Source: Limnochorda sp. LNt
GTDB lineage: Bacteria > Bacillota > Limnochordia > Limnochordales > Geochordaceae
Direction: 5' to 3'
Assembly: GCF_035593265.1 (NCBI RefSeq)
Contig: NZ_CP141614.1
Location: 372,001-436,000, forward strand
DNA length: 64,000 nt
The position numbers and the translations under genes were made by a program. Each line of letters begins with the position of its first letter. The first letter of the stretch is position 1. Positions 41,930 through 49,681 of the stretch are shown piece by piece. The notes under the pieces are model-generated. The model was not told the origin of the DNA. It made no database searches and saw nothing but the letters and a program-made list of their open reading frames with translations.

Positions 41930-42271
41930 ATGCCACGGGTCTGTACCGTCATCTATCCCGTCAGGGACTTGACCGCCGCGAAGAAGGTGTTCGGCCAGCT
42001 CCTAGGCGTCGCGCCGTACGCGGACCAGCCCTACTACGTCGGCTTTCGGCTCGGCGACCAGGAAGTAGGTCTGGATCCCAACGGCCACGGGAAGGGCATG
42101 ACCGGTCCGGTCCCCTACTGGGACGTGACCGACATCAAGGCGACGCTCGCGCGGCTCGTCGACGCAGGGGCCGAAGTGCACCAGAACATCACCGATGTCG
42201 GAGGCGGTAAGCTGATCGCGTTGGTGAAGGACCCGGACGGTAACCTCATCGGCCTGATCCAGAACCCGTGA
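41930..42271 (+). CDS. VOC-superfamily (glyoxalase/bleomycin-resistance-like) protein
   Basis: 113 residues from ATG 41930 (GGAGAGGATGC ahead). One beta-alpha-beta-beta-beta module pair: VCTVIYPVRDLTAAKKVFGQ, YYVGFRLGDQEVGLDPN and ALVKDPDGNLIGLIQNP, as in small VOC proteins. Members bind metals and act in glyoxal, antibiotic or organoarsenical detoxification. Its place just before arsR-arsM raises the last option, but nothing in the sequence proves it. Confidence 0.8.
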   Translation: MPRVCTVIYPVRDLTAAKKVFGQLLGVAPYADQPYYVGFRLGDQEVGLDPNGHGKGMTGPVPYWDVTDIKATLARLVDAGAEVHQNITDVGGGKLIALVKDPDGNLIGLIQNP

Positions 42272-42478: not shown

Positions 42479-42508
42479 TTGACAGATATCGATATATCAG
42501 CCTATACT
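42479..42508 (+). promoter_or_regulatory. ars promoter with ArsR-type operator in the spacer
   Basis: Consensus -35 TTGACA (42479-42484) and -10 TATACT (42503-42508), 18 bp apart. The AT-rich imperfect palindrome GATATCGATATATC (42485-42498) fills the spacer. ArsR/SmtB repressors bind such AT-rich dyads, so self-repression is expected. A related CATATCGATG occurs at 43004-43013, before arsM. Confidence 0.7.
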
Positions 42509-42531: not shown

Positions 42532-42945
42532 ATGCGGGGGGGGGGGAGCCGAGTGGCGCTTCAGCGCACCGACGAGGCAAGAGCTGATAGCCATCTGCAC
42601 CGAGGTCCGGGCCGGGGACAGTCCACCCGTCCCTGCTGCGCGCCCGTCATACCGGCTCGGACGCCCCCGGCAGAACTCGCACGATGGGCGCGCATCTTCC
42701 GAGCCCTTGCCGACCCGACCAGGCTCGGCATCCTCGCGCTGCTGCAAGCTCAGCAGGAGCCCCTGTGCGTGTGTGACATCGTGGCGCAGTTTCCCCGGGG
42801 GCAGCCGACGATCTCCCACCACCTCAAGGTCTTGCGAGACGCGGGGCTCGTGACGGCCGAGCGCCGTGGCCCTTGGGTCTACTACGCGCCAGCGGCACCG
42901 GGGCTGGTGGAGGCCTGGCGTGCCATCGGACGGCTGATGCCGTAG
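42532..42945 (+). CDS. arsR: ArsR-family metalloregulator
   Basis: 137 residues from ATG 42532, or from GTG 42553. An 11-base G run follows the ATG (42536-42546). The winged helix reads FRALADPTRLGILALLQ, QEPLCVCDIVAQFP and GQPTISHHLKVLRDAGLV. The CxC pair (CVC) in the recognition helix region is the classical As(III) site. An N-terminal Cys-Cys pair (TRPCCAPV) could add ligands. It represses the operon until arsenite binds. Followed by arsM. Confidence 0.88.
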   Translation: MRGGGSRVALQRTDEARADSHLHRGPGRGQSTRPCCAPVIPARTPPAELARWARIFRALADPTRLGILALLQAQQEPLCVCDIVAQFPRGQPTISHHLKVLRDAGLVTAERRGPWVYYAPAAPGLVEAWRAIGRLMP

Positions 42946-43050
42946 GACGGGGGTGAGGGGGGCCGCCCATCGGCGCCCGTGTGAGCGGGGACTGGCTCGC
43001 CCGGCATATCGATGAAGGTCGATGCATCTGTGAGCGAAGGAGTGAGAGGC

Positions 43051-44340
43051 ATGCGGGAGCAGGACGCGATCGTCGAGGCGGTGCGGGAGCACTACGCGGA
43101 GGTGGCCCGGCGAGCGGCTCGGGCCAGCGAGGGGCGGACGTCGTCAGGCTGCGGGTGCTCTTCCGACGGCGGATGCTGCACGGGAGCCTCGGGCTACTAC
43201 GCACCCGACGAGAGGACGCTGGTGCCCGCGGAGGCGCTGGCCGCGTCGGCGGGTTGCGGCAACCCCGTCGCCCTGGCCGACCTGCACCCCGGCGAGGCGG
43301 TGCTGGACCTCGGCTCGGGTGGGGGCATCGATGTCCTCCTGTCAGCCCGTCGCGTCGGGCCTGGCGGCTACGCCTGGGGCGTGGACATGACCCGGGAGAT
43401 GCTGGAGCTGGCCGAGGAGAACCGCCGGCGCAGCGGCCTGGACAACGTCGGCTTCCTCGAGGGACGGATCGAGGCGGTCCCGCTGCCCGACGCCAGCGTG
43501 GACGTGGTCATCTCCAACTGCGTCATCAACCTGTCGGTCGACAAGGCGGCGGTGCTTCGGGAGGCGTTCCGGGTGCTGAGGCCCGGGGGACGCCTGGCGG
43601 TCTACGACATCGTGGCGCAGGAGCCCCTCAGCGCCGAGGCGCGGCGTGACCTGCGGGCGTGGTCCCAGTGCGTGTCGGGCGCGCTGGACCGGGAGACCTA
43701 CGTGCACCTCCTCCGGGAGGCGGGGTTCGTCGATGTCGAGGTGCAACCCGTGCTCGCCCTGCAAGCCGGCGGGTGCTGCGGGGGCGACGAGGGGCCGCTA
43801 CCCGTCGGCAGCGCCTTCGTCCGGGCTCGCAAGCCCGGCTCCCCCGACCTCGGCGACGGCCGGCTCACGGTGGAGGCGGCGTCCCGGGATGACCTCCCTG
43901 CCATCCTGCATCTGCTCGAGAGGTTGGGACTTCCGACGGAAGGCGTCGCCGAAAACCTCGAGGGCTTTGTCGTCGCCCGCCGCCGGATGCCGGCGCCGGG
44001 AGGCCCGGCCGAGGGGAGCTTGCAGACCGTCGCCACCGTCGTGGGCTGCGCAGGCGTTGAGCTCTACGGCCTGCAGGCGCTGCTGCGCTCCGTCGCGGTC
44101 AGCCCTCCGTTCCGGGGTGCCGGCATCGGCCAGCGTCTGGTCGCCGCGGCACTGGAGCGGGCACGCCGCCTTGGCGCCAGCGAGGCTTACCTGCTGACGA
44201 CGACGGCCTCGGAGTACTTCGCCCGGCTGGGCTTCGAACAGGTGGAGCGGCAGGCCGTGGTTGGCCCCGTCACCTCCTCCTCCGAGTTCGCCCGCGTCTG
44301 CCCCGACACGGCCGTCGTGATGCGTCGGGAGCTGCACTGA
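43051..44340 (+). CDS. arsM: ArsM arsenite methyltransferase fused to an ArsN2-like GNAT domain
   Basis: 429 residues from ATG 43051, with AAGGAG nine bases ahead; an ATG at 43012 lacks a ribosome site. Residues 1-260 are ArsM: N-terminal Cys cluster SSGCGCSSDGGCC, SAM motif AVLDLGSGGGIDVLLSARRV, and the arsenic-binding cysteines C69 (SAGCGNP), C157 (VISNCVINLS) and C207 (AWSQCVSGAL), plus GGCCGG near 241. Residues 271-429 form a GNAT fold: LTVEAASRDDLPAILHLLE, VGCAGVELYG, VSPPFRGAGIGQRLVAAALE (acetyl-CoA loop) and ASEYFARLGFEQV. ArsM methylates As(III); ArsN-type enzymes acetylate organoarsenical compounds. The fusion suggests consecutive steps. Confidence 0.9.
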   Translation: MREQDAIVEAVREHYAEVARRAARASEGRTSSGCGCSSDGGCCTGASGYYAPDERTLVPAEALAASAGCGNPVALADLHPGEAVLDLGSGGGIDVLLSARRVGPGGYAWGVDMTREMLELAEENRRRSGLDNVGFLEGRIEAVPLPDASVDVVISNCVINLSVDKAAVLREAFRVLRPGGRLAVYDIVAQEPLSAEARRDLRAWSQCVSGALDRETYVHLLREAGFVDVEVQPVLALQAGGCCGGDEGPLPVGSAFVRARKPGSPDLGDGRLTVEAASRDDLPAILHLLERLGLPTEGVAENLEGFVVARRRMPAPGGPAEGSLQTVATVVGCAGVELYGLQALLRSVAVSPPFRGAGIGQRLVAAALERARRLGASEAYLLTTTASEYFARLGFEQVERQAVVGPVTSSSEFARVCPDTAVVMRRELH

Positions 44341-44600
44341 GGGAAGGCCGGTGGGGAGGATGGGGGCACTCGCCGCCACGGCCGGGAACGGCTGCATCAT
44401 GCGAGTCCCCCCGGTCGCTATGTGAGCCTACCCCGACGAGGCGAGGCTGAGCACGGCGCGGGAGAGAGTTCCCGGACCGCCCATGGGCCGGGACGACCCC
44501 GTGGGCAGCTCCGTCCTCGTGCAGGCGGCCTGGCCCACCCCCGCGTGGGCGGGGACGGCTCGCGGGTGTTACGGCCGGCGCTAAAGTAGCTCTCCCGCAA
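44341..44600. other. Intergenic region after arsM
   Basis: No supported gene in these 260 bases. The right part adjoins the decayed IS3 element, whose exact end was not found. Confidence 0.4.
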
Positions 44601-45204
44601 ATGCGGTGATGGAGTTGATCCGATTCTGTGGACAACCGGTGGGTAGGCAGCCGTAGCGGGCACTTCGTGGTGTAGGCGCCACTGCTTTCGAACGCCTCCG
44701 GGCTCAGAATGGCGCCGGCAGCGGTTGTAGAAGGCCTCGATGTGCTCGAAGATGGCAGTCTGTGTACTGGGCACCGTGGTCGGCGTGATGCACCAGCCCA
44801 CCGGCAGGCCGGCCGTTCCAGAAGGCCATGTTCAAGGCGTCGGTGGGCAGCTCGGTCGTCGGCCGCTCCCCCATGGCCCAGCCCACCACCCGGCGGGAGA
44901 AGGCATCGATGACCGTCGCCAGGTGGAGCCAGTCTTCCCCGGTCGGGTGCTGGGTCAGATCGGCTACCCACCACCGGTCCGGAGCGTCGGCGGCAAAGAC
45001 CCGCTGCACCCGGTTGGGGACGATGGGCCGGCGGGGCCCCGGCAGGTGATGCTCCGGGTCTTGCGCCGATGGCCCCCTGCAGGCCCAGCTGGTGCATCAG
45101 CCGGGCCACTTGTTTGCTGGAGCAGCGGATGCCGTCGCTCCTCCGAAGCTCTCGGCCCAGACCCGTGGCGCTCCGTAGGTGCCCCGGCTGGCCGCGTGGT
45201 TAGC

Positions 45205-47042
45205 CGGAAGTTCAGCAACCCCGATATCCCTCAAATCACGGCAATGACGCCAACGGAGTGGGATTCAAGCGTTCAGGCTTCTGGCTACGCCAGGGGAACC
45301 CCCAGCAACTGGAAGAGCCGCTGGTGCAGCGGCTCAGGCTCGCCGAGCATCTGGATTTCCTGACCGGCCACCTCGACCGTGTGGCGCTGCAGCGTCTCCA
45401 GCTGCATCATCAGCCCCTCGAAGGACCGCCGGGGGTCCTCCGCCAGCAGGGGCTCAAGCGCCCGCTCCATGTGCCAGCGCACATACAACGCCAGCATGCA
45501 CAAAAAGGCGTGGGCCCGCACCCGGTCCTCCAGCCGGTGGTAGACCGGACGCAGGTCCAGGGCGCTTTTCATCGTGCGGAAGTTTTGCTCCAGGGCCCGC
45601 AACGATTTGTACGTGGCCTGCACCTTGGCCGGCTCCATCCGGTCGGCCGGCACGTTGGTGCGCAGCACGTAAAACCCGTCCAGCTCCGCCTCCCGGGCGA
45701 TGGAGGCCTCCTTGCGCCGGAAGGCGAAGTGGCCGTCGCGGATCTCCAGGCTGGAAGTGCTTGCCACCTTCCAGCGGCCCAGGACCTTGCCCACGGCCAC
45801 CCCGATTTCGTCGGCCGTCAGGGGCTTGCGGCGGCGACGGCGCACCCGGGCTTCGATTTTGGCCAGCTCCCGCTCCGTGGCCGAAAGCAGCGCCTCGCGC
45901 TTTTGCCGGCGCTCCTCGGTCACCAGCGGATTGTAGCAGACCACCAGCCGCTCCCCGGGCCGCTCGGGGTCGGCGATCTCCGCCAGGTCCCGCCGGTCGA
46001 ACAGGCCCGGCTGAAAGAACCCTTCATCCCGCAGCTTCTGGATCTCCGGCGCCCGTAGGGCCGTGATCCACCCGAAGCCCACCGCCTCCAAATCGCTCAA
46101 TCGGGCCTTGACGATCATGCCCCGGTCGCCGACGAACACGACGTACTCAATGCCGAACCGAGCCCGGACCCGGGCAATCTGGGCTGCAGCGTCTCGGGAT
46201 CCCCCACGTCGCCGGGAACACCTCCACGGCCACGGGACACCCCTCGTCGTTGGTGAGCAGCCCCACGCAGAACTGCTTCTCGCCCGCTTCTTGTCCCGGT
46301 TGTACCCGAAGCGGGCCAACGGGCAGGTCTTGCCCTCCAGATAGACGCTCGTCAGGTCGTACAAGACGAGGGCGTTGGCCGTCAGGTGCCGGCGCGCCAG
46401 CTTCGCCTCGATAGCGGCCTGACGGGCCAGCAGCTCGTCCATGGCCCGGTAGACGTCGTTGACGTCCTCGCCATCGTGCGGCAACCGCAGAAGCTGCGGC
46501 AACGTGGTGGTCGTCCACCACAAAGTCCCGCCCAGCTTGGAGGAGGGCCGCAGGATGCGCATGACGACGACGGCCAGGGCCAAGCGCACCCAGTCGGCCG
46601 AGCGGGAGTAGAGCACCTGGTCCAGGCCCAGCTGGCGGATCATGCCCACGACGGCGGCGACGGCCCCGTGCTGGCGGGACTGGCGAATCTTTACCGTCTG
46701 CGGCACCGGCGCCACCGGCTCGCCCCGCAGGGCTCGCCGGACCAGCTCCAGGACGGCTTCCGGCAGGTGGGAGAGGTTGGCCAGGGTCCGGTGCTTCACC
46801 TTGCCGCCTTCCCGGTAGGTCTGGCGCAGCAGGTGGTAGGTGTAGACCTTGTCGCCCTGCCGGCGGCGGATGGTCTCGATGTGCATGGCACTGGATACGC
46901 ACCTCATGGCTCAATGGTAGCACATGACAACTGTCAAGGCAATACCTTAGGGCCATACTCTTGGCTACATTGGCACGCGTTCAACCGGTTTGAATGCCCA
47001 CCGCTATGCGGGTCCTGCCCGCTACCAGCCCCTGAACTTCCG
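45205..47042 (-). mobile_element. IS1634-family insertion sequence with clean ends
   Basis: A 1838-bp element with 11-bp perfect inverted repeats (CGGAAGTTCAG at 45205-45215, CTGAACTTCCG at 47032-47042) and a 6-bp target duplication GTTAGC (45199-45204 and 47043-47048). Joining the flanks restores the IS3 orfB frame MERIRAN-HAASRGTYG. It therefore inserted after the IS3 element was in place. Confidence 0.9.
45285..46907 (-). CDS. IS1634-family transposase, with an internal out-of-frame stretch
   Basis: An open frame of 540 residues; ATG 46886 is an alternative start. Motifs: HIETIRRRQGDKVYTYHLLR, LVLYDLTSVYLEGKTCPLA, YVVFVGDRGMIVKARL, FYVLRTNVPADRMEPAKV and MKSALDLRPVYHRLEDRVRA. Around 46190-46300 the open frame is wrong (ARSSSAWGCSPTTRGVPWPW), while another frame reads EKQFCVGLLTNDEGCPVAVE as expected. 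Three one-base losses in short G or C runs would explain it. It may be inactive, or the indels may be sequencing errors. Confidence 0.85.
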   Translation of the reverse strand: MRCVSSAMHIETIRRRQGDKVYTYHLLRQTYREGGKVKHRTLANLSHLPEAVLELVRRALRGEPVAPVPQTVKIRQSRQHGAVAAVVGMIRQLGLDQVLYSRSADWVRLALAVVVMRILRPSSKLGGTLWWTTTTLPQLLRLPHDGEDVNDVYRAMDELLARQAAIEAKLARRHLTANALVLYDLTSVYLEGKTCPLARFGYNRDKKRARSSSAWGCSPTTRGVPWPWRCSRRRGGSRDAAAQIARVRARFGIEYVVFVGDRGMIVKARLSDLEAVGFGWITALRAPEIQKLRDEGFFQPGLFDRRDLAEIADPERPGERLVVCYNPLVTEERRQKREALLSATERELAKIEARVRRRRRKPLTADEIGVAVGKVLGRWKVASTSSLEIRDGHFAFRRKEASIAREAELDGFYVLRTNVPADRMEPAKVQATYKSLRALEQNFRTMKSALDLRPVYHRLEDRVRAHAFLCMLALYVRWHMERALEPLLAEDPRRSFEGLMMQLETLQRHTVEVAGQEIQMLGEPEPLHQRLFQLLGVPLA

Positions 47043-47162: not shown

Positions 47163-47474
47163 TCATTCGCCTGCGCCTGGCGGGGGGCGACGCGCCAGCA
47201 TCATGCCGTCATGCTCGACCAGGTCGACAGGAGGGCTACCCAGCACCTTGACGGCTTGCTCGCCAGGTACGCTTGGCTCCCGCCACAACATGGCGATGCT
47301 TGCGTCGACTTCCACGGCAAACCACTCTTCCAGCACGCCCCAGATGCGCTCTCGGACGGCGGGCGACAAGCGAAAGCCACAATAGACCCCAGGCGCAAGC
47401 TCCAGCATCGAGGAAGCCAGGAACCCCCTGATGCGATCTGATACGTTACGCGTCACGATGATCGTCGTCGACAT
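47163..47474 (-). CDS. cas2: Type I-E CRISPR-associated endoribonuclease-like Cas2e
   Basis: 103 residues from ATG 47474, overlapping cas1 by 29 nt. Typical Cas2e start TTIIVTRNVSDRIRGFLASS, then MLELAPGVYCGFRLSPAVRE and WGVLEEWF. It forms the Cas1-Cas2 integrase that inserts new spacers at the array leader. Last gene of the operon. The IS3 relic begins at its stop codon. Confidence 0.93.
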   Translation of the reverse strand: MSTTIIVTRNVSDRIRGFLASSMLELAPGVYCGFRLSPAVRERIWGVLEEWFAVEVDASIAMLWREPSVPGEQAVKVLGSPPVDLVEHDGMMLARRPPPGAGE

Positions 47475-48342
47475 CGAGTAGCTCCTTGATCTTCCCGATC
47501 ATGGCGGGGATGACTCGCTTGGTCCGAAACCACTTGGCTGCCTCGTATCGAACTTCTCTCTCCAAGGGGAGCTCGGGATCGCGCAGAACGCGCGCCGCCA
47601 CGGAGAAGGCCAGCGGCAACGTCACCTCTGCCCGCCACAGGTCAGCGATGTCCAGGGTGAAGGCGTTGCTCGACTCTTCATGGATGAAGCCCAAGGGCGG
47701 GAGTGCTCCGACTGCTGCAACGGCGATGTCGGCCGCCGCCTCGACGAAGGTGGCCGCATGGTTGACGGCTTGGTTGGGGATATCTGCGGCCTCCGGATTG
47801 TCACGGTCATACCGGCGGCCCTTCCACTCGATGCCGTACTTCCTGGCGATGATGCGGTACGTCTCCCGGACCCGAGCCCCTTCCATCCCTCGTAGGATGC
47901 TGATGTCCCGATGGGGCAGGACCTCACCGAAGCGAACCGCGTACATGCGGCGTGCGACCCGGAGGCGGGACTCCTCGTCTGCCCAGAGCCGGGCATGGGC
48001 CCTAGCCACATCCGATCGGCCCTGCCCCATGGGCGGTGCGGTATAGAGCTTCACCCCACCCTCCCCGACCGCCGCGAGGAGGGTCCCGTGACGAGCTAGG
48101 ATACGCAACACGTCGTGGGTGACGCTTGTCCCGGGGCCCATCAGAATCATGGAGACGCCCTGATACGGAATGGCGTAGACACCTGGGGGCAGATCATCGC
48201 TACCGGCCGCCCGAAAGCAGAGCGTCCCATCCTCTACGTACAGATTCCCTCGGGATAACCACAGAAGCCCGTGGCGGTCCGCATGGGGGATGCTCGACCC
48301 TGCCAGGCCGAGGCGTCCTGGAAACAGGAAAGACGAACTCAT
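47446..48342 (-). CDS. cas1: Type I-E spacer integrase Cas1e
   Basis: 298 residues from ATG 48342, which overlaps the cas6e stop (ATGA). The N-terminal beta domain includes LLWLSRGNLYVEDGTLCF. The alpha-helical catalytic domain includes RGMEGARVRETYRIIARKYG with a metal-binding Glu, then LPPLGFIHEESSNAFTLDIA with the conserved His and Asp. Full length for Cas1e and apparently intact, so adaptation could still work although interference is probably lost. Confidence 0.94.
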   Translation of the reverse strand: MSSSFLFPGRLGLAGSSIPHADRHGLLWLSRGNLYVEDGTLCFRAAGSDDLPPGVYAIPYQGVSMILMGPGTSVTHDVLRILARHGTLLAAVGEGGVKLYTAPPMGQGRSDVARAHARLWADEESRLRVARRMYAVRFGEVLPHRDISILRGMEGARVRETYRIIARKYGIEWKGRRYDRDNPEAADIPNQAVNHAATFVEAAADIAVAAVGALPPLGFIHEESSNAFTLDIADLWRAEVTLPLAFSVAARVLRDPELPLEREVRYEAAKWFRTKRVIPAMIGKIKELLDVDDDHRDA

Positions 48343-49070
48343 GACGGAGGCCTCAGGAGGACCATGCCATAGCCGAAGGCCCTGTGCCGACCGATCCCTT
48401 TGCACAACAGGCTCGCAAACGCTTCAGGGTCTCCCACCATCAGCTCACCTCGCAGGAGGGCCTGGGGCCTGGTTATATGCCTCTGCCCCCGGCCGTGGCG
48501 TGACCCCTGCACGCGGCGGGTCTGCCTGACCAGCCGGAAACCCTCCAAGCGGATGCTGGTCACCGTGCAGGCACCCTGTCGCTCCAGGCGCTCGCGGACC
48601 CAATCGGAGTACACCCTGTCACGAGTCAGAGCTCCTGGGGGCGCCGAGTCTGCGCGGATGAGGAACAAGTCCTTCTCAATGCCCCCCTCAGCCTTGCGCC
48701 CCACGGGACAACATAGCACCTCGAAGCCCAACCGGCGCCCATGCCGCCACGAAGGCATCGCCTTCCCGGCGATCATCGTCTCCGGATCCGGACAAACGGC
48801 TGCAGAAGCAGGCTCGGCCAACTCTCGCAGACGTCGTCGCAACTGCTCGGCATCAGCGCGACCATATCCCAGGATCCGTGGCGGCCTGCCGCGCCCTACA
48901 AATAGGCGCCACGGCTTGGGTGCCAGCGGGCCGAAGGTGGCGGCCAACCAGGCATGGATGCCGTAACCGAGATCCTCGTCGCCATCCCGAATGTCCAGTC
49001 CCTGTCCCTGCAAGAACCGCAGGAGAAGGGGCAGGTCGATGCGCAACTCCAGCATGTAAAGCGTGGTCAC
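48339..49070 (-). CDS. cas6e: Type I-E crRNA endonuclease Cas6e
   Basis: 243 residues from GTG 49070, which overlaps the cas5e stop (GTGA). Starts TTLYMLELRIDLPLLLRFLQ and includes GYGIHAWLAATFGPLAPKPW with a His in the usual catalytic zone. It ends with the glycine-rich RNA-binding loop GIGRHRAFGYGMVLL. It cuts the array transcript within each repeat hairpin and stays bound to the crRNA 3' end in Cascade. Confidence 0.93.
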   Translation of the reverse strand: MTTLYMLELRIDLPLLLRFLQGQGLDIRDGDEDLGYGIHAWLAATFGPLAPKPWRLFVGRGRPPRILGYGRADAEQLRRRLRELAEPASAAVCPDPETMIAGKAMPSWRHGRRLGFEVLCCPVGRKAEGGIEKDLFLIRADSAPPGALTRDRVYSDWVRERLERQGACTVTSIRLEGFRLVRQTRRVQGSRHGRGQRHITRPQALLRGELMVGDPEAFASLLCKGIGRHRAFGYGMVLLRPPS

Positions 49071-49681
49071 GGTGCCTTCCCCTCGATGATGCCCTCGACC
49101 CGCCAACGGCTACCCGCCGGGATTTGATTGGACCAATCGCGCAGGTCGAAGACCCGCCGGAGTTCGCCGCGGCCGGCCGTCCCGAGGCTGGCTGGCCAAC
49201 ACGCCAGTAGACGGTCGGCGGCTTTGACCGGGAGCCCGGCTCGGTCCCAGACCGGTATCCCGCGCAGGATTGACAGAAGGTCGTCGCCGTCAGCGACCGG
49301 CGTCACCGGATCCAGTAGGGGCCGCGCCGGGAGACAGGCCTTGCGTCCAAGGAACAGGGGCCTGGCGGGGTGTCGTAGGGCCTCTACGACCCTTTCGAGC
49401 GTCGGCTCAGCGTCACCGTGGAGCGTCAACACCACCGTCAAGAGGCCGTCAACCCAGTAGTGACGATAGCGCTCGTGTGTGCCGAGCCTGGCCGATGGCC
49501 CGCCCGCCCTGTGCTCGGCCACGCCGCGACGCGTCCATCCCGGTCGGGACATCTTCGGTTGGCCGAGGTCGACCGTGTGGTAATCGACCATCCGTTGTGG
49601 CAGCACATCCCAACGGGCCGCGTACTCCAAGCGACGTTGGAGCGCATCCAACTGCTCGAAGTCTCCATGGCTCCATCCTAG

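Follow-up and report, generated by a model that had tools for sequence, protein, structure and literature searches.

An arsM-arsN2 fusion gene behind arsR in Limnochorda sp. LNt, probably encoding a two-domain arsenic detoxification enzyme

In the stretch of 64,000 nucleotides of Limnochorda sp. LNt DNA analysed here (the window), one continuous and conserved protein is encoded behind an arsR gene and its promoter, and it combines an intact ArsM with an intact GNAT acetyltransferase of the ArsN2 type. The protein is probably an arsenite-induced, two-headed arsenic detoxification enzyme. Recurrent fusion to ArsM in both domain orders, along with fusions to ArsC, ArsR and ArsN1, ties ArsN2, which is annotated in many ars operons, to the arsenic response. 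Such two-domain proteins provide a direct handle on the role of ArsN2, as its activity can be assayed beside a known one.

The fused gene and its locus

The fused gene occupies a single frame on the + strand, from ATG 43051 to the stop codon at 44340 (429 aa), and no stop codon interrupts this frame over 43012-44340. At ATG 43051, AAGGAG lies 8 nt upstream and constitutes a strong Shine-Dalgarno sequence. An alternative, earlier ATG at 43012, giving 442 aa, is not preceded by a Shine-Dalgarno sequence, and 43051-44340 is thus the better gene model. Residue numbers of the fusion protein (C82, aa 294-439 and so on) count from ATG 43012. The features of the locus are the following.

41930..42271, + strand: VOC/glyoxalase-fold gene, 113 aa (PF00903, 38.4 bits)
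42479..42508, + strand: sigma-70-like promoter TTGACA-18 nt-TATACT before arsR (11/12 consensus positions)
42532..42945 (probable start), + strand: arsR-like metalloregulator, 137 aa from ATG 42532 (NF033788, 93.9 bits, cut-off 55)
43051..44340, + strand: arsM-arsN2 fusion gene (open frame; AAGGAG; NF008823 and NF040501 above cut-off; same fusion in G001)
43054..43752, + strand: ArsM half, aa 15-247 (SAM-binding VLDLGSGGG, aa 97-105; C82, C170, C220; NF008823; CmArsM alignment; structure match)
43753..43890, + strand: ArsM C-terminal strand region and junction to the GNAT half, aa 248-293 (Cys pair C255-C256; alignments)
43891..44328, + strand: ArsN2 GNAT half, aa 294-439 (LLRSVAV, acetyl-CoA loop RGAGIG, conserved C430; NF040501; structure model; fold match; 62 domains)

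A first-pass annotation of this DNA had described a 429-residue fusion of ArsM to an ArsN2-like acetyltransferase, encoded behind arsR. This description was borne out: both family models score above cut-off in one frame, the fusion is alike in another genome of the genus (G001, 67-68% identity to the window protein), and the ArsR-family gene ends 105 nt upstream of the fusion. The same fusion in a second genome argues against an assembly or frameshift artefact in the window. Pfam methyltransferase and GNAT domains were found at positions matching the NCBIfam placement.

The product of the arsR-like gene carries a CVC in its DNA-binding region (by eye). The promoter before it has no sigma-70-like counterpart elsewhere in the 3 kb searched, where 0.1 sites would be expected from shuffled sequences, and its spacer contains short AT-rich palindromes (42485-42498) that could be the ArsR operator. 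In G005 and G187, too, the fusion is immediately preceded by an arsR gene; none was seen in the pieces read around the fusions of G001, G008 and G343. The VOC gene upstream had been proposed to belong to the same pathway, a proposal that gained no support, as, when examined as a candidate ArsI C-As lyase, it matched general VOC families alone at E <=0.01, with no specific family above cut-off, and no VOC gene was seen beside the other fusions read.

Directly 3' of the fusion (44270-46907, - strand), two transposase-like stretches were observed by eye, the first apparently split over two frames; with these adjoining it, the arsM-arsN2 locus may be mobile. At 3-5 kb downstream (47163-49106, - strand), genes resembling cas2, cas1 and a cas6e/casE of a type I-E CRISPR-Cas system were noted by eye.

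No match to the Acr3 pump was obtained in the window's genome, G001, G005 or G008, so that methylation could weigh more in these four genomes. In the window's genome no pI258-type ArsC scored above cut-off, and an ArsB-like match was far below it (181.5 of 415 bits). Arsenate-reductase-like pieces at G000:C1:1116238-1116509 and G000:C1:2689136-2689358 match only piecewise and in different frames, which would fit a broken arsC.

The ArsM and ArsN2 halves

The ArsM half (aa 15-247) scored 284.8 bits with the NCBIfam arsenite methyltransferase model NF008823, the cut-off being 263. In an alignment to ArsM of the PDB, C82, C170 and C220 fall on the catalytic cysteines of CmArsM, presumably Cys72, Cys174 and Cys224, in agreement with the earlier statement that all catalytic ArsM cysteines are present. 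Among 31 aligned ArsM halves (10 fused), C170 and C220 were invariant, and C82 was found in at least 90%, including 10/10 of the fused ones. CrArsM and CmArsM were the closest solved relatives, and the structure predicted for the whole protein matched both (CrArsM, Z 24.1, rmsd 2.5, 212 aligned; CmArsM 4fr0, Z 23.6, rmsd 2.9, 212 aligned). Assignment to the ArsM of arsinothricin biosynthesis was rejected, with 125.9 of 500 bits for NF040538 and 77.1 of 240 for NF040539. NF040542, a family tried as a marker of ArsL, the arsinothricin synthase, proved to describe a different group of radical-SAM proteins.

The GNAT half (aa 294-439) scored 137.3 bits with the ArsN2 model NF040501 in the whole protein and 141.6 when analysed alone (cut-off 125). 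Its location is that of an ArsN2 of an ars operon, with arsR upstream and arsM fused to it. Predicted alone, with 7 aligned sequences, it gave a GNAT fold with a mean pLDDT of 89.6 and a pTM of 0.83, and the full GNAT fold read earlier from the sequence was thereby confirmed. For the whole protein the mean pLDDT was 76.0 and the pTM 0.57, the inter-domain arrangement being poorly predicted, and confidence was low at aa 253-259 and 277-283.

The four top solved folds matching the GNAT half were all N-acetylglutamate synthases: 2r8v (Z 17.9, rmsd 2.1, 141 aligned), 3d2p and 5yge (both Z 17.1) and 5yo2 (Z 16.9). Other GNATs follow at Z <=16.6, so that the lead of the synthases is small. With a profile of 62 ArsN2 domains, N-acetylglutamate synthases likewise came first (E 1e-13). 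These results agree with the sorting of arsN genes in the available part of PMC6465285, a paper focused on arsN1, where arsN1 is related to phosphinothricin acetyltransferases and arsN2 to glutamate acetyltransferases. Membership of the synthase families themselves was rejected (36.5 of 202.85 bits for TIGR01890, 35.5 of 344 for NF003641), as was that of ArsN1, since neither NF040503 nor NF040504 was one of the 13 listed families that matched the GNAT half at E <=0.01. Across the 62 ArsN2 domains, S360 was conserved in 62, R359 in 60, and E350 and C430 in 58 each. In an alignment with E. coli ArgA, the segment around C430 (EFxxxCPxSA) comes to lie close to the C-terminal part of that protein but is separated from it by a gap, so any equivalence is tentative.

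Selection on the two halves was estimated by the Nei-Gojobori method from one pair, the window protein and that of G001, for which synonymous differences are high and the values accordingly rough: dN/dS was 0.16 for ArsM aa 64-247, 0.31 for ArsN2 aa 294-439 (0.22 for aa 343-439) and 0.54 for the junction. A value of about 1 was obtained for a GNAT loop, aa 324-342 (window 43981-44037), that is present in the window and G001 and absent from the other ArsN2 rows displayed beside them. The values suggest that the GNAT half is maintained by purifying selection. Degeneration of this half, one of two findings that could have overturned the fusion, is thus contradicted by its dN/dS as well as by its pLDDT. 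The other, separate translation of the GNAT half, was also rejected: a search for an internal start codon that is both conserved and preceded by a ribosome site yielded none. Near the beginning of the half, GTG 43750 is the sole in-frame candidate with a ribosome-like site of six bases, and the corresponding codon of G001 is GTC.

Occurrence and origin of ArsN2 fusions

A survey for the same fusion revealed that it is not unique to the window. In the window's class, ArsN2 matches (E <=1e-10) were obtained in 7/72 genomes; four of these were strong (110-138 bits), and all four were fused to ArsM, the remaining three being weak GNAT matches of 47-59 bits. In the phylum sample, 27/398 genomes had a match at E <=1e-22. 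Open frames of 111-190 aa, too short for an ArsM, kept 16 of the 27 out of ORF reading, and eight were fused to ArsM (G000, G005, G119, G157, G187, G191, G343 and G442). With G001 and G008 added, the fusion was found in 10 genomes of the window's phylum, in five genera. The order is ArsM-ArsN2 in eight of them and ArsN2-ArsM in two, G005 and G008, which belong to one genus. The ArsN2 halves exceed the family cut-off in 7/10 and are just below it in G005 (121.6), G187 (114.2) and G008 (110.7).

When 25 of these genomes were searched with the ArsM half, ArsM was detected in 14 (E <=1e-15). In six of the 14 it was fused; in the other eight, where ArsN2 is unfused, it was on a different contig or at a distance of over 250 kb. 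The arsM/arsN2 pair is therefore not obligate, as genomes of the phylum sample with an unfused ArsN2 lack arsM beside it.

Trees were constructed for 31 ArsM and 62 ArsN2 domains. The fused rows cluster more than in shuffles, and the hypothesis that all fused copies share one origin was not rejected (p-AU 0.283 for ArsM, 0.427 for ArsN2). The ArsM half of G187 groups with unfused ArsM (87/91). The two domain orders require at least two events, either a fusion and a rearrangement or two fusions.

Other partners of ArsN2 were also encountered. In the window's phylum, ArsN2-ArsN1 fusions, two acetyltransferases in one protein, were found at L057:1465-2394 (above both cut-offs) and L073:1465-2394 (slightly short of both), and at L060 ArsN2 is fused to a dehydrogenase. 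In Pseudomonadota, ArsN2 matches at E <=1e-25 were present in 25/398 genomes (28 matches), and all 11 matches with frames longer than 280 aa were read. None of the 11 was fused to ArsM; six were fused to ArsC in either order (L083, L093 and L096 by profile; L085, L094 and L097 by eye), one to ArsR and one to an ArsN1-like domain (both by profile), and three had no clear partner. At L086:1441-2295 (- strand), an ArsR repressor domain is joined to ArsN2.

At L046, an ArsC-ArsN2 fusion is followed by arsM. This locus comes from a MAG, in whose phylum 25/377 genomes had an ArsN2 match, and five of the 27 matches were read besides L046/L130: two ArsC-ArsN2 fusions (by eye), one of them beside arsM, one GNAT joined to a protein that by eye resembles an Mpl-type ligase, and two with no partner. 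The fusion beside arsM, L131:599-2352 (- strand), stands in the row acr3, ArsC-ArsN2 fusion and arsM, the last two overlapping by ATGA. The GNAT with the Mpl-like partner, which would be a murein peptide ligase, is at L141:79-1899 and scores below the ArsN2 cut-off. A genome-contig search with the GNAT half returned seven loci (Cupriavidus, Burkholderiaceae, Aquabacterium, Pararhizobium and a Proteobacteria MAG). At L045:5992-8061 of Aquabacterium humicola, the fusion partner of ArsN2 resembles a flavin monooxygenase and has a tail rich in cysteine.

Viral contigs searched with ArsN2 queries gave no relative. A tblastn search of plasmids with the whole protein matched 491 records, and one single place covered at least 80% of the query. 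There, on a plasmid of the haloarchaeon Haladaptatus caseinilyticus, arsM and arsN2 share a reading frame without being fused, as a stop codon and 24 nt lie between them. The same order was observed on the haloarchaeal plasmids of H. pallidirubidus and Natrinema, and an Adhaeribacter plasmid (Bacteroidota) carries arsR-arsN2-arsM-metallophosphoesterase-acr3. Both fused gene orders thus exist as unfused neighbours too. Recurrent fusion and adjacency link ArsN2 to ArsM, and its fusions with other partners link it to the arsenic response in general.

Proposed function and relation to known systems

From the families of its parts, the protein would act as follows. As(III) would release ArsR, and the fusion protein would be made. 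The ArsM half would bind As(III) through C82, C170 and C220 and methylate it with SAM, its substrate being either As(III) or organoarsenicals. The ArsN2 half would transfer an acetyl group from acetyl-CoA to the amino group of a small molecule resembling an amino acid; its kinship with N-acetylglutamate synthase makes a glutamate-like molecule the likeliest candidate. Fusion would mainly fix the co-expression and equal amounts of two detoxification enzymes, and would not serve as a one-way channel; that ArsN2 is also fused to ArsR, ArsC and ArsN1 is better explained by fixed co-expression than by a dedicated channel. By analogy, the most attractive specific substrate of ArsN2 would be a glutamate-like organoarsenical, because ArsM of an arsinothricin producer methylates trivalent hydroxyarsinothricin (PMC8552651, available part) and ArsN1 acetylates arsinothricin (PMC6465285, available part). 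If ArsN2 does act on an organoarsenical, natural arsenic-containing amino acids beyond arsinothricin would be indicated.

A narrower role, in which the protein confers resistance to arsinothricin, hydroxyarsinothricin or a similar glutamate-like arsenical, with ArsN2 acetylating the amino group and ArsM handling the arsenic atom, is unlikely. The nearness of the GNAT half to glutamate acetyltransferases, the ArsM activity on trivalent hydroxyarsinothricin in the producer and the ArsN2-ArsN1 fusions (that of L057 above both cut-offs), ArsN1 families being known for arsinothricin acetylation, are in its favour. It is opposed by the scores of the window ArsM, far below both arsinothricin-pathway models, and the literature, as far as its text was available, reports no action of ArsN2 on compounds of this kind. 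Protection from an arsenic-containing antibiotic, as suggested at first pass, was likewise not borne out, the GNAT half being ArsN2 and not the arsinothricin-acetylating ArsN1.

It is also doubtful that the fusion arose by chance and has no functional meaning, neighbouring ars genes having been joined by loss of a stop codon while each half acts alone. The gene pair of Haladaptatus caseinilyticus could pass for the starting point of such an event, and the many fusion partners of ArsN2 would fit as well, as would one common origin of the fused copies, which the trees did not reject. The fused state nevertheless extends over five genera, no fewer than two events are needed to account for its two domain orders, and both halves are under selection in the one pair tested.

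More speculatively, and with little probability, ArsN2 might acetylate trivalent organoarsenical glutamate analogues, with C430 holding the arsenic near the glutamate side-chain site of the synthases. In that case a single molecule would receive both its methyl and its N-acetyl group from the fusion protein, which would either disarm or build N-acetylated arsenical amino acids of undescribed kinds.

Direct passage of an ArsM-made organoarsenical to ArsN2 for acetylation, the channelling put forward in the first-pass annotation, is improbable: both fused orders and the side-by-side separate genes of other lineages are compatible with it, but ArsN2 is equally fused to ArsC, ArsN1 and ArsR, the last of which is unable to channel a substrate, the inter-domain arrangement is poorly predicted, and mono- and dimethylarsenicals, the usual ArsM products, are not known to have an amino group that could be acetylated.

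The reading as a two-headed detoxification enzyme, co-expressed under ArsR, can be set beside the systems already described. A literature search that took in few subscription papers returned no published description of an ArsM-ArsN2 fusion. ArsRM of Brevundimonas sp. M20, as described in the available part of PMC10190100, is likewise a natural fusion of an arsenite methyltransferase to another ars protein; its partner is the ArsR repressor, whereas that in the window is an acetyltransferase. ArsM_AhpD_UU (NF041537) and ArsM_DUF2284_UU (NF041536) also combine ArsM with a second domain, and the window's ArsM half matches theirs, but they are selenoproteins with other partners, and the window protein falls well short of both cut-offs (185.4 of 510 and 159.4 of 575). 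With ArsM proper (CmArsM, CrArsM; NF008823) the window protein shares a score above cut-off, the catalytic cysteines and the SAM fold, and it differs in its C-terminal GNAT domain. N-acetylglutamate synthase (ArgA; 2r8v, 5yge) is closest to the GNAT half in solved fold and sequence profile, although the half remains far below the synthase family cut-offs. ArsN2 (NF040501, clade 2 arsN of ars operons) shares with it the score above cut-off, the GNAT fold and the ars context. ArsN2 is usually a free protein, whereas in the window it is fused behind ArsM and, among four sequences compared, the extra loop at aa 324-342 is found only in the window and G001.
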